Shown here one piece after another: positions 47,732 through 52,354 of a DNA stretch of 64,000 nucleotides. Origin of the DNA: Gracilibacillus oryzae (GTDB lineage: Bacteria; Bacillota; Bacilli; Bacillales; Amphibacillaceae). Location: contig NZ_ML762424.1 in assembly GCF_009498735.1 (NCBI RefSeq), forward strand, positions 330,441 to 394,440. Reading direction: 5' to 3'. The notes beneath the pieces were generated by a model, which saw nothing but the letters and a program-made list of their open reading frames with translations, did no database searches and had not been told where the DNA came from. The translations under genes and the position numbers were made by a program. The stretch's first letter is position 1. Each line of letters opens with the position of its first letter.

Positions 47732-48322
47732 TTAAGATCCTTCTTTGGCAAAACTGAAATCTCCAAACAAATAGTCTACAATATTTTTATTTAAATCCCT
47801 TAACTCTTTTATATCAAAACAATCTTGATTACTCATCGTTATACAACTATGAAACAGTGAGATTATTTCTGCAAATGTATCTTTTTTATTTGCAATTTCT
47901 TCTTCCGTTAGGTCTTCAAATGACCTCCCAGTTCTTGATAGTGTCATATAAGTTAATAATCCAAATAGTATTGGTTCTAGATTATCTTCATTAGGTATTT
48001 GTGTATTATGCCGATCCTCAAAATGGTCTTTAATTTTTTTTGATGAGTATTGAAAAAACTCTTCTAGGAAGTTAAAGTCCCATGTATCCAATACATACCC
48101 CGAATTTCCTACGATATAATCAACTGAGGTATTAAAGAATTTTGCATGTTGAACGATTTCTTCCAAGGTTGGTCTTTCTGCATTGCTTAAATATTTTTGC
48201 AGAGTCAATCGGTTAAAACCCAAATCCTCTAACAGAATATCTCCAGAAATATTAAAACCATTAATTTCTAACAAATGCTGTAGTTGATTTCCTATCATTA
48301 CTTTTGATACTTCGCTATTCAT
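47732..48322 (-). CDS. Xre/Cro-like HTH regulator with C-terminal domain
   Basis: 196 residues. The N-terminal 70 residues look like a helix-turn-helix domain of the Xre type (GNQLQHLLEIN, RLTLQKYLSNAERPTLEEIVQHAKFFNTSVDYIVGN); the ending FNTSVDYIVG is a common Xre hallmark. The remaining ~120 residues are helical and acidic, of unknown family. ATG at 48322 follows AAAGGGCGGG. Its place 1 kb from the recombinase makes it a candidate regulator of element transfer or excision. Confidence 0.75.
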   Translation of the reverse strand: MNSEVSKVMIGNQLQHLLEINGFNISGDILLEDLGFNRLTLQKYLSNAERPTLEEIVQHAKFFNTSVDYIVGNSGYVLDTWDFNFLEEFFQYSSKKIKDHFEDRHNTQIPNEDNLEPILFGLLTYMTLSRTGRSFEDLTEEEIANKKDTFAEIISLFHSCITMSNQDCFDIKELRDLNKNIVDYLFGDFSFAKEGS

Positions 48323-48436
48323 TTATATCCCGCCCTTTCACGTTTGTATCTCTCTTGTAATTATAAGGGGTCCTAATCAAGTATTTATAAAAATGAGACA
48401 CCCCCTTTGATGTTGTGGTAGATGTTTTAAAACCCG

Positions 48437-48949
48437 TTAACGAAGCATAAAATATCCCAGTATCAAAGAAATTGGGATACTAAACACCATAACCCTACCC
48501 TGCCAAGTAATCCCTTTGTCAAGTTCACTTTCTTTATAATCATTTTTTGCTAAAATATAGCCCCTCAGAATACAGAACCAAAAAAATCCTCCAGCCAACA
48601 AAAACAATAAATTATATACACTAAGAATAAAATTGTCTGTTAAAACAAGAATGACAAGACTTAATACAATATAGGCAATAAATTTGCCAGCAAAAGCCCT
48701 GATGACAATATACTTGGGGATGCACTCCTCTAATTCCTCTTCTTTTATTGGATAAATATTCAAAATCACATTGAATATCAACCCACCCGAAAACAATATC
48801 CCTAAAGAAAAAATATAATAATCTATAGCTGGTATACTGTAATGTAACCACATCATGGGTAAATAAATAGTTGTAAAAATTCCTGAGTAGTAAATCATTA
48901 AACCTAACAAAGCCAACTTATGCCATAGTGAGTCAATCACTTTCCCCAC
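48437..48949 (-). CDS. Polytopic membrane protein of unknown function
   Basis: 170 residues, five predicted transmembrane helices (about 10-30, 40-62, 85-105, 108-128, 148-168). No motif recognised. GTG at 48949 has GGAGG nine bases upstream and is preferred over GTG at 48955, which is only three bases away. Transcribed away from the recombinase gene. Confidence 0.6.
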   Translation of the reverse strand: MGKVIDSLWHKLALLGLMIYYSGIFTTIYLPMMWLHYSIPAIDYYIFSLGILFSGGLIFNVILNIYPIKEEELEECIPKYIVIRAFAGKFIAYIVLSLVILVLTDNFILSVYNLLFLLAGGFFWFCILRGYILAKNDYKESELDKGITWQGRVMVFSIPISLILGYFMLR

Positions 48950-49375
48950 GTCCACCCACCTCCGTTTTATTTAAAACTATTTTAACGCGTTTTCTCTAAT
49001 TTCTCCGCCAATAATATAAAAGAAGTTAAGACCCGTATCATTTTGAGTTTCATATTCTTTAATTTACGACATCCTTGGGTAGAAGAATAACTATTGACAA
49101 TCAAAATTTGCCATTCTAAATTTCGTCCAATTATCAAACTGGTAAATACGACTAATTCATTCTTTATCAAATTAGGAAAAAGGTAGTATAATTGTTTTAT
49201 CTGAAGTGTCTTCTTCGTACAAAAATTTTGTGCAAAAGACAAGGACAAAGTATTATAAAAAAGAAGCCTTGTAATCTTAATTAATTTTATACAAAGGTAA
49301 ATACATATTTAAGGTTATAACTCTTAATACAGAAGGGTTTTTACCCAAATTAATGGTGGAAATGGAGGTTATATA

Positions 49376-51313
49376 ATGAAACTAGGTGCCGCTTATATAC
49401 GAACAAGTGTAGATAAAACTGGAAACAAAATTAGTCCACAACAGCAATATAATGCAATTAAGGGCTTTGCAGATAACAACTCTATTACACTTGTTAATGA
49501 GGGTTATTACGATGAAGATGTTTCTAGTGAAAACTTTGAAGACCGTCCTGCTTTCCAACAACTGTTAGAAGATATTGATAAGTACAATATTAAGTACATT
49601 ATATTTTATGATAGCAGTCGTTACACTCGTGTGGTTAAGGATTTTATAAATATGACCACCAACTTACAGGAAAAAGGCGTTAAAATCTTCTTAGCAAATA
49701 GTGGCAAGGAAGTAAATCTCCTTGACTGGAACAATAACACAATGATGGATTTAATCCAGTCAATTTTTGACCAAAATATGCGTGAAGATGTGAGAAAGAA
49801 GGTGAAAGCCAATATAAATGAACTTGTAGATATGGGTTGCTATATAGGAGGGCCCATTCCGATTGGGCTTTCAATAGAAGAAGTAGAAATTAATGAAAGA
49901 AAAAGAAAAAGGTATTGTTTAGGGGATACAAAAGAAATTGAGTTGGTTAAAAATATTTTTAAATGGTATTTAGAAGATGATAAAAGCCTAAGTGAAATAG
50001 TACGTTTAGCAGATGAGCAATATGCCGATATTTTAAATGAAAATGATATAAAAAAATACCGTAAAAATGGGACTGAGAACCATTATAACGGAGTGTACTT
50101 TAACAGTAAGAAAATCTGGAGAATACTTAGAAATCCATCTTACACAGGTTATATGGTAAAGAACAGAAGAGAAAGAATAACTAAAAAGAAAAGAAAAGAT
50201 AATCCGATGGAAGAATGGTATTGGAGTAAAAATTTTAGAGAAGGAAAAGAACCTGATTTCACTCCAATTGTTTCATTTGAAACATGGGAGAAGGTTCAAC
50301 AAAAAATGCAAGCAAGAAAGCCTAAACAAGAGCACTATGATCCTCAAAGAGAAAATAGCCCCTATCTATTATCTAGCATGTTAAAGTGTAATGAATGCGG
50401 AAGGGCTATGAATGGTACTTATACAATGGGAAAAACAAAAAAAGATGGTACACGCTCAAAGTTTTATTACTATAAATGTGATGTAGCTATAAAAAGTAAA
50501 GGTCAAAACTGTAGTAATAAGAAAATGGTACGTTGTGAAAAGGTTGATAATATAGTTCTTGACATATTTGGTAATGCAACTGTACTGCTTAATGTATTAA
50601 AGACGTTATATAATTATCAAAAGGATGCATTAGAAAACAATACTGCATATCTCGAAAAAATTAATGAACTTGAAAACAAAATAAAAAAAGCGGAAATTGC
50701 AGAGCAGAATGTTATATCAAGTATTGGCGAGGTAACCGATCCAGATTTTAAGATGAAATTAATAAGTCAAGGTGAGGAATTATCAAAACAAATTAGACAA
50801 TTAAGAAAGCAGAAAAATGAATTAAATGATGAACAAGAAGAACAAAATATGAAAAAAGTTGAATTGCAGGAAGTCGTAGGGTTATTACTTCAGCCTGAAA
50901 CCCTTTATAAAAATCAAACAACTAAGCAAGTAAGAAATTATTTAAAACATGTGATAGAATCAATTGAGTATAAGCCAAATAAGGAAATTGTAATGAATTT
51001 AAAGTTTGCGAAGAAGTCAATGAGCATCGCCACCGTACCTACTGAAAAGTTTAAAGAATTAAAACAAGAAATAAAAACGGAAAAAGGAAGAGTTAGTAAA
51101 AAGAAAGTAAAAGAACAAAATCAAATAGTCCTATTTAGTCTTTTAGCTACCTTATGGGATAAAGATCCCAACAAAATTGGAAAAGATGAGGCTAGTATAA
51201 TAAACTTTATAATAGAGGCTTTAGATGAATTTAATGGGACGAATGAGGAATTTGCATACCCAAAGTATAGTGGTACGGTGGCACACGGGGGTTCATTCGT
51301 CCCTTCTGTCTGA
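49376..51313 (+). CDS. Large serine recombinase (integrase) of the island
   Basis: 645 residues. Resolvase domain 1-150 with nucleophile Ser11 (AAYIRTSVDK) and FYDSSRYTR; recombinase domain ~165-300 (LRNPSYTGYMVKNRRE); zinc ribbon MLKCNECGRAMN...YYYKCDVA...GQNCSNKK (~337-385); coiled coil ~415-500 (KINELENKIKKAEIAEQN, LSKQIRQLRKQKNELNDEQ); C-terminal domain to 645. Integrates DNA between short attB and attP sites. ATG at 49376 follows GGAGG. The last codons (about from 51277 on) are formed by the trpS T-box and the TGA stop lies in the terminator loop, so the protein C-terminus depends on integration. Confidence 0.95.
   Translation: MKLGAAYIRTSVDKTGNKISPQQQYNAIKGFADNNSITLVNEGYYDEDVSSENFEDRPAFQQLLEDIDKYNIKYIIFYDSSRYTRVVKDFINMTTNLQEKGVKIFLANSGKEVNLLDWNNNTMMDLIQSIFDQNMREDVRKKVKANINELVDMGCYIGGPIPIGLSIEEVEINERKRKRYCLGDTKEIELVKNIFKWYLEDDKSLSEIVRLADEQYADILNENDIKKYRKNGTENHYNGVYFNSKKIWRILRNPSYTGYMVKNRRERITKKKRKDNPMEEWYWSKNFREGKEPDFTPIVSFETWEKVQQKMQARKPKQEHYDPQRENSPYLLSSMLKCNECGRAMNGTYTMGKTKKDGTRSKFYYYKCDVAIKSKGQNCSNKKMVRCEKVDNIVLDIFGNATVLLNVLKTLYNYQKDALENNTAYLEKINELENKIKKAEIAEQNVISSIGEVTDPDFKMKLISQGEELSKQIRQLRKQKNELNDEQEEQNMKKVELQEVVGLLLQPETLYKNQTTKQVRNYLKHVIESIEYKPNKEIVMNLKFAKKSMSIATVPTEKFKELKQEIKTEKGRVSKKKVKEQNQIVLFSLLATLWDKDPNKIGKDEASIINFIIEALDEFNGTNEEFAYPKYSGTVAHGGSFVPSV
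51262..51300. other. Probable attachment junction (attR-like) inside the trpS T-box
   Basis: To the right, GGTGGCAC (51277-51284) and the terminator are typical T-box leader DNA. To the left, the sequence is recombinase coding sequence and the bases that should pair with TCCCTT in a T-box antiterminator (AAGGG expected) read GTACGG. The crossover is therefore placed near 51275-51280. The exact core and the other attachment site cannot be read without the left end. Confidence 0.6.
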
Positions 51314-51333
51314 AGGGAGAATGGGCCTTTTTT
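51277..51333 (+). promoter_or_regulatory. Truncated trpS T-box: T-box sequence plus terminator
   Basis: GGTGGCAC holds UGGC, able to pair with the GCCA end of tRNA-Trp. Then GGTTCATTC-G-TCCCTT / AAGGGA-GAATGGGCC forms a long hairpin (51290-51327) followed by TTTTTT (51328-51333), the T-box terminator. Specifier stem I and the upstream leader are missing at this position; they would be at the island's other end. T-box control of trpS is therefore broken here. Confidence 0.8.
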
Positions 51334-51352
51334 GTATTTAATAATTTTATGA

Positions 51353-52354
<1,002 letters not shown>

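Follow-up and report, generated by a model that had tools for sequence, protein, structure and literature searches.

Sequence analysis places the right end of a large-serine-recombinase island within the trpS T-box antiterminator of Gracilibacillus oryzae

In Gracilibacillus oryzae, the reading frame of a large serine recombinase runs straight into the regulatory leader of trpS, the gene for tryptophanyl-tRNA synthetase. How did an integration enzyme come to end inside a T-box, and what became of the control and expression of the gene behind it? We approached these questions from a 64-kb window (the whole stretch of DNA analysed; G000:C1:330441-394440), whose relevant features are collected in Table 1. 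Having passed GGTGGCAC (51278-51285), the recombinase frame enters the trpS leader terminator without interruption, and its TGA (51311-51313) falls in the loop of a hairpin at 51290-51327 that is followed by six Ts. On folding, which was done for this carrier only, the hairpin was stable (–24.6 kcal/mol, z –6.5), despite a simpler terminator scan of 49000-51500 listing no terminator. A first-pass annotation made from the letters alone had described this open frame and the position of its stop, and both descriptions hold.

The recombinase matches PF00239 (Resolvase), PF07508 (Recombinase), and PF13408 (Zn_ribbon_recom) above their Pfam cut-offs, in the order catalytic domain–Recombinase–zinc ribbon, with all three domains whole after integration and a C-terminal extension of ~100-130 residues past the matched models. 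Among NCBIfam models, CcrB, CcrC, and XisF come closest, each scoring far short of its cut-off; with 90.9 bits for CcrB and 85.6 for CcrC, where 900 is required, the protein falls outside the SCC cassette recombinases. The synthetase gene had a single match in this genome and in each of the other genomes that carry the recombinase (6/6 single).

Table 1 Features at the right end of the island (window positions).
Feature	Position	Strand	Basis or remark
196-aa protein, weak RstR-type repressor match	47732..48322	-	23.6 bits, cut-off 80
Large serine recombinase, integrated form	49376..51313	+	645 codons; 1-639 from the element, 640-645 and stop from the host trpS leader
62-nt block, proposed embedded promoter for trpS	50927..50988	+	identical in five genomes of four genera
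TGTGATAGAAT, extended –10-like box (TRTGnTAGAAT)	50950..50960	+	sequence; TRTGATARA kept in five of six relics
Left arm of attP (element side of attR), with T-box-like GGTGGCAC	51265..51289	+	symmetry, carrier identity
GG crossover core of attR	51290..51291	+	sole fit to attB, attL, and attR
Host half of the trpS T-box: antiterminator 3′ strand, terminator hairpin, T-run	51292..51333	+	comparison with empty sites, folding
trpS, tryptophanyl-tRNA synthetase, sole copy found in the genome	51362..52354	+

A split T-box and the recurrence of the island

If the island sits inside the trpS T-box, the missing half of the leader should lie at its other end, next to a short matching core. This is where we found it: left of the window, at G000:C1:314677-314872, a partial T-box (RF00230), which at 80.3 bits stays short of the Rfam gathering score of 93, comprises stem I, the specifier, the bulge GGGTGGCACC, and the first part of the antiterminator, with island sequence directly after. 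Within the 64-kb window itself, no T-box reached the gathering score. Core to core, the island measures 66,875 bp; instead of one continuous leader, the two halves stand 67 kb apart at opposite ends of the island, and trpS retains its terminator without stem I or specifier, as the annotation had proposed. Uninterrupted cores are present in relatives: nine of 16 members of the genus have a T-box core before trpS (seven do not), and these intact leaders read ...AGGGTGGCACCGCGGTTCATTCGTCCCTT..., with GGTGGTACC in G010 and G011.

The left end (attL) reads ...GGGTGGCACCGCGGGGCATGTGTCACG... and the right end (attR) ...GTACGGTGGCACACGGGGGTTCATTCGTCCC.... Because the GG just before TTCATT is the sole dinucleotide compatible with the attB, attL, and attR sequences, we place the crossover there, between the antiterminator strands of the T-box, in the succession ...GGTGGCACCGC, GG, TTCATTCGTCCC.... 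From T-box anatomy we take AAGGG/CCCTT to be the outer antiterminator strands, and attB therefore spans the antiterminator stem. On the element side, the two attP arms mirror each other at 17 of 25 positions (0 of 100,000 shuffles did as well), forming a pseudo-palindrome around the GG dinucleotide common to attP and attB; the attB arms are only weakly symmetric (8/18 positions, counted without a shuffle control). Positions 51269-51289 are identical in all six carriers, as is GGTGGCACACGGGG, while at 51267 the other five have T where this copy has A.

These observations bear on the origin of the right-end GGTGGCAC. The first-pass annotation had taken it, along with the last ~12 codons, as host DNA gained on integration, a version that has no place for a lost tail or a promoter, and GGTGGCAC is indeed the T-box core of host leaders too. 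Yet attL, on the left, accounts for the host copy of GGTGGCAC. The right-end copy lies seven bases from TTCATT rather than the five of the host, GGTGGCACACGGGG is the same in 6/6 carriers, and the copy lies within one arm of the attP palindrome; moreover, empty sites in element-free relatives contradict GGTGGCACACGGGGGTTCATTCG, the reading that a host-derived GGTGGCAC requires. Given the different spacing, the identity across carriers, and the mirrored arms, we assign the right-end GGTGGCAC to attP and regard the earlier version as almost certainly wrong on this point. A host-coded C-terminus stands, shortened to six codons, with host DNA beginning at 51292. The attP-arm octamer (51278-51285) sits 2 bp farther from the core than its counterpart in attB, which may be coincidence or may reflect shared recognition by the enzyme.

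We also considered that a functional antiterminator might be rebuilt at attR from the attP arm, and rejected this as the helices do not form by eye. Next to the left-end T-box lies an operon that, going by synteny with B. subtilis, we take to be opp-like. In six of seven same-genus stretches fetched, it is found on the upstream side of trpS, ~0.8-10 kb off; within the ~1.8-2.5 kb of host side fetched from other carriers, there was no opp-like gene at comparable identity.

The same arrangement recurs in relatives. Among family genomes, 6 of 159 had a recombinase match (E <= 1e-60, our own included). Four near relatives at 85-88% identity came from the genome_contigs set, namely Ornithinibacillus californiensis, Oceanobacillus bengalensis, Ornithinibacillus contaminans, and Cerasibacillus terrae; the sixth carrier, G092, has a partial gene at a contig edge and falls in the same identity range. 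In 6/6 carriers, recombinase coding sequence adjoins the trpS terminator, every copy found occupying the same site, a recurrence that speaks against a chance junction, and in none (0/6) does stem I stand directly upstream of trpS, an arrangement that would have spoken against the annotated insertion. The attB search motif GGTGGNACCNCGGTTCATTCGTCCC, with two bases left open, occurred once each in 74 of the 159 family genomes and in 0/6 carriers; in 12 of 12 of the 74 with trpS coordinates, it lay just upstream of trpS. Taken together, the sequences identify the locus as the right end (attR) of a large-serine-recombinase island for which the trpS T-box antiterminator serves as attB.

Beyond the family, sampled and overlapping sets of genomes from the order and the class returned only our own copy (1/397 and 1/398, E <= 1e-40). 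Phage and plasmid matches to the recombinase (179 and 117 records) were all below 60% identity, a scan of viral_contigs confirmed no close relative, and no stretch in that set represented a circular form. A search with the C-terminal extension and tail together brought nothing significant from phages (2 records, E about 9) and no plasmid match. A more distant recombinase clade using other T-boxes, which we had entertained, drew no support from the order and class samples, from viral_contigs, or from the phage and plasmid matches.

The cargo is that of a metal-resistance island. Pfam searches with 41 ORFs of our island (part of its total) identified four P-type ATPases (three carrying HMA domains), along with CopC, CopD, a cadmium transporter, and ZIP and cation-efflux proteins; a protein resembling mercuric reductase that matches HMA weakly, and Dsb-type proteins; and MerR-type and ArsR-type regulators plus a pair of two-component systems. 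Families of phage structure or conjugation were absent from these 41. The Cerasibacillus and O. contaminans islands measure ~32 kb and ~66 kb, respectively, by contig coordinates. The island further encodes an 883-aa protein with weak helicase matches (DEAD, Cas3-like, below cut-offs; L022:4677-7328) and a tyrosine recombinase (L022:11079-11942). Both are shared with the Cerasibacillus island, at 73-85% and 80% identity, and may be part of the element core. Close to the serine recombinase, the 196-aa protein of Table 1 recurs in three other carriers and its 172-aa neighbor in four; the two, which together span 47732-48955, are possible controllers of the recombinase.

An attP site within the recombinase gene

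Left ends were found for all five carriers searched (our own and the four named relatives; G092 was not among them), so that the two ends of each island could be joined. Read through this junction, the recombinase frame stays open in all five for 28 further codons up to a TGA, without a frameshift, placing attP within the gene of the enzyme; each of the two alternative frames meets a stop within 3-20 codons. In the Cerasibacillus attR, one base differs (GGGGA instead of GGGGG), and its tail frame therefore assumes a point change after integration. Nucleotide identity along the tail is 0.81-0.95 and drops to 0.28-0.39 directly past the stop in nine of ten pairs, the tenth (our own versus O. bengalensis) sharing its left end (0.98). 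We conclude from these joined sequences that the full-length recombinase would have 667 residues and that integration would swap its 28-residue tail.

The tail might instead not be protein at all: the left end would then be conserved solely for a terminator and the attP right arm, with the recombinase ending wherever host sequence allows. The attP arm takes up the first ~25 bp past the core anyway, the stop in our own copy is overlapped by a terminator hairpin, and replacement changes exceed synonymous ones in nine of ten pairs (with a tie in the remaining one), from which we take the protein-level constraint to be loose. Conservation nevertheless extends well beyond a 25-bp half-site up to the stop and ends there in nine of ten pairs, the tail has equal length without frameshift in 5/5, and the Cerasibacillus copy—which by eye has no such hairpin—keeps its frame to the same TGA. 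A purely non-coding left end thus appears distinctly doubtful to us, and we favor a translated tail, whose role in recombinase function may be considered with the mechanism below.

In the integrated form, the C-terminus gained in the exchange varies among the six carriers. With hairpins judged by eye except for our own, the stop lies in or beside the terminator loop in G. oryzae, G092, and Cerasibacillus, in the 3′ arm in O. bengalensis, and past the hairpin in O. contaminans. In O. californiensis, the frame continues through the terminator and is fused in frame with TrpS as one 995-aa ORF (L053:9998-12985). By eye, the terminator itself seems intact in most carriers. The annotated claim that the recombinase C-terminus is made from host leader DNA is thus borne out, and excision would, judging from the sequence, alter both this C-terminus and the regulation of trpS, as was also foreseen.

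A conserved block upstream of trpS and its relics

How, then, might a trpS gene severed from the front of its leader continue to be expressed? The longest identical run among the five full recombinase genes is the 62-nt block of Table 1; the partial sixth copy (G092) differs from it at one base. Averaged over 20-codon windows, the five full genes show a mean synonymous difference of 0.225, which falls to zero over codons 518-544 and 621-643, the latter stretch lying beside and within the attP arm. A run of 27 codons free of synonymous change, as in codons 518-544, was reached in one of 20,000 permutations of codon columns 1-615. The block contains an extended –10-like box (Table 1), and we consider it a candidate promoter supplied by the element to the single-copy, essential trpS gene. 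Such a frozen, promoter-like segment could explain the continued expression of the beheaded gene. A second run identical in the five full genes, of 41 nt, occurs at 51095-51135.

Traces of the block recur in genomes that lack the element. In five of the seven genus members devoid of a trpS T-box core, it aligns to the trpS leader with scores of 27-36 (shuffle maximum 20), as against 0/9 matches, with scores of 8-14, among the T-box-bearing members; the other two, G006 and G008 (L089 and L088), have neither T-box core nor recombinase relic at trpS. As a pattern with <=3 mismatches, the block was found in 11 of the 159 genomes—within the recombinase of the six carriers and in five trpS leaders (G002, G009, G014, G016, and G060)—and the G005 relic was seen by alignment rather than by pattern. 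G060, from another genus, retains ~130 nt of recombinase sequence that is decayed and contains stop codons, and its 3-kb trpS locus is devoid of a T-box core. The relic is always oriented towards trpS. It keeps TRTGATARA in five of the six relic genomes, the sixth having TGTGGTAGA. In the trpS tree, the relic genomes G002, G014, G009, and G016 form one well-supported clade with G005 elsewhere, the deeper branches being weak. Counting G060 as well, the six relic genomes would on the simplest reading represent three independent cases; our reading is that the promoter fragment probably stays behind when the rest of the element is lost.

The block might have been frozen for another reason—as a binding site for the recombinase or a directionality factor, or through strong constraint on the protein—with the relics being leftovers of dead copies. 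It has no clear –35 box, and a consensus promoter scan, which found 10 sites where shuffles led us to expect 11.1, did not list it. It also encodes a conserved protein segment (VRNYLKHVIESIEY), and G060 retains more than the block. Protein constraint alone, however, does not freeze synonymous sites, and the block is the sole recombinase stretch upstream of trpS in five of six relic genomes (blastn, E < 1e-4), always pointing towards trpS and with TRTGATARA conserved as described. On this evidence we judge another function of the block unlikely and keep to the candidate promoter. As a general promoter motif the block was rejected, since no genome had more than one match (<=1) and matches were confined to the recombinase or the trpS leader.

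Alternatively, trpS might be transcribed only from the promoter upstream of the recombinase, with translating ribosomes holding the terminator open and, at the extreme, making a fused protein. In all six carriers, the frame remains open at least as far as the terminator 5′ arm extends, and both the O. californiensis fusion and the O. contaminans stop past the hairpin would fit. By eye, however, none of the frames meets a stop within the 5′ arm, and openness of the frame is therefore no test. Moreover, read-through alone would tie an essential gene to the expression of the recombinase and leave the frozen block and its relics unexplained. Exclusive dependence on the upstream promoter thus seems improbable, and we retain an embedded promoter as the preferred source of trpS transcripts. 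By eye, we saw no conserved translation start from which ribosomes on a transcript of this internal promoter could cover the terminator.

Proposed mechanism and relation to known systems

We consider it probable that the island combines an attB in the T-box antiterminator, an attP within the recombinase gene, an exchange of the tail, and an embedded promoter for trpS. Recombination at GG would leave stem I, specifier, and bulge on the left and the antiterminator 3′ strand, terminator, and trpS on the right, cutting trpS off from its own promoter and sensor. On the circle, whose junction is expected to read CACACGGGGGGGCATGTG (or a homolog) and to carry the frame into the 28-codon tail, the enzyme would have its 667 residues; integration would replace the 28-residue tail by host-leader residues, six in G. 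oryzae. The promoter presumed to lie within the recombinase coding region, ~400 bp ahead of trpS, would keep the essential gene alive. Transcripts from either the recombinase promoter or the embedded one would have to get past the old terminator, and translation of the recombinase through its 5′ arm may help the polymerase do so. Where the element was lost and the promoter fragment kept, trpS would have passed from tRNA-sensing to simple promoter control.

A more far-reaching version, which we put forward tentatively and regard as not quite an even call, is that of a self-editing recombinase. Here, the tail swap would flip the activity of the enzyme, the full-length form integrating and the tail-less form being silent or excision-competent, the embedded promoter would rescue trpS, and dead elements would repeatedly convert tRNA-sensing to plain promoter control. 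A direction switch is the boldest reading of what the tail may do.

In the antiterminator of an RNA switch, this serine recombinase has for its attB a sequence present once per genome and common to several genera, akin to tRNA genes for tyrosine integrases. The locus would also provide a natural case of integration editing the C-terminus of a serine integrase, which bears on direction control in genome-engineering enzymes, and a concrete route by which a T-box may be lost and replaced by a mobile-element promoter, in seemingly three separate lineages. In the titles and abstract beginnings of open-licence literature, we found no report of a T-box as the site of a serine recombinase, or of a recombinase of this type whose own gene contains attP.

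The enzyme resembles the large serine integrases (phiC31, Bxb1, A118/LI; CcrB/CcrC) in domain order, in its use of a conserved host site, and in a short core with a crossover dinucleotide. With LI/A118 integrase it further shares a pseudo-palindromic attP with long half-sites, a length of 25 bp being reported for LI integrase (PMC3783163). It differs from these integrases in that attB is a T-box antiterminator, attP lies in the recombinase gene, a C-terminal extension of ~100-130 residues is present, and a promoter appears to be embedded in the gene.

Other elements likewise intervene in host genes. SXT/R391 elements integrate at the 5′ end of the housekeeping gene prfC (PMC2791158; PMC3715440). 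In that case, a tyrosine integrase targets a coding sequence, and no riboswitch is involved. SXT gives prfC a new promoter and 5′ end, and we know of no promoter inside the integrase gene of SXT/R391. In tRNA-dependent lysogeny, the element breaks an essential function at attB that a phage tRNA gene replaces (PMC10865867); in our island, a promoter would take the place of that tRNA gene, and the host gene itself would stay in use.

Closest in logic are systems in which integration alters a gene of the element itself. In the integration-dependent immunity of mycobacteriophages, attP is located in the repressor gene, the C-terminus of which is changed by integration (PMC9262239); there, the edited gene is a repressor, and a tyrosine integrase acts at a tRNA gene, whereas here it is the recombinase's own gene. 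The suicidal integrases of SSV1, pTN3, and pT26-2 carry attP in their own gene and are altered by integration; they are tyrosine recombinases split into int(N) and int(C), and are described as exclusively archaeal (PMC8371274). With these, the G. oryzae island and its four relatives share an attP within the integrase gene, and they depart from them in that the enzyme is a bacterial serine recombinase, undivided into N and C parts, whose catalytic portion remains whole and of which only the C-terminal tail would be exchanged.
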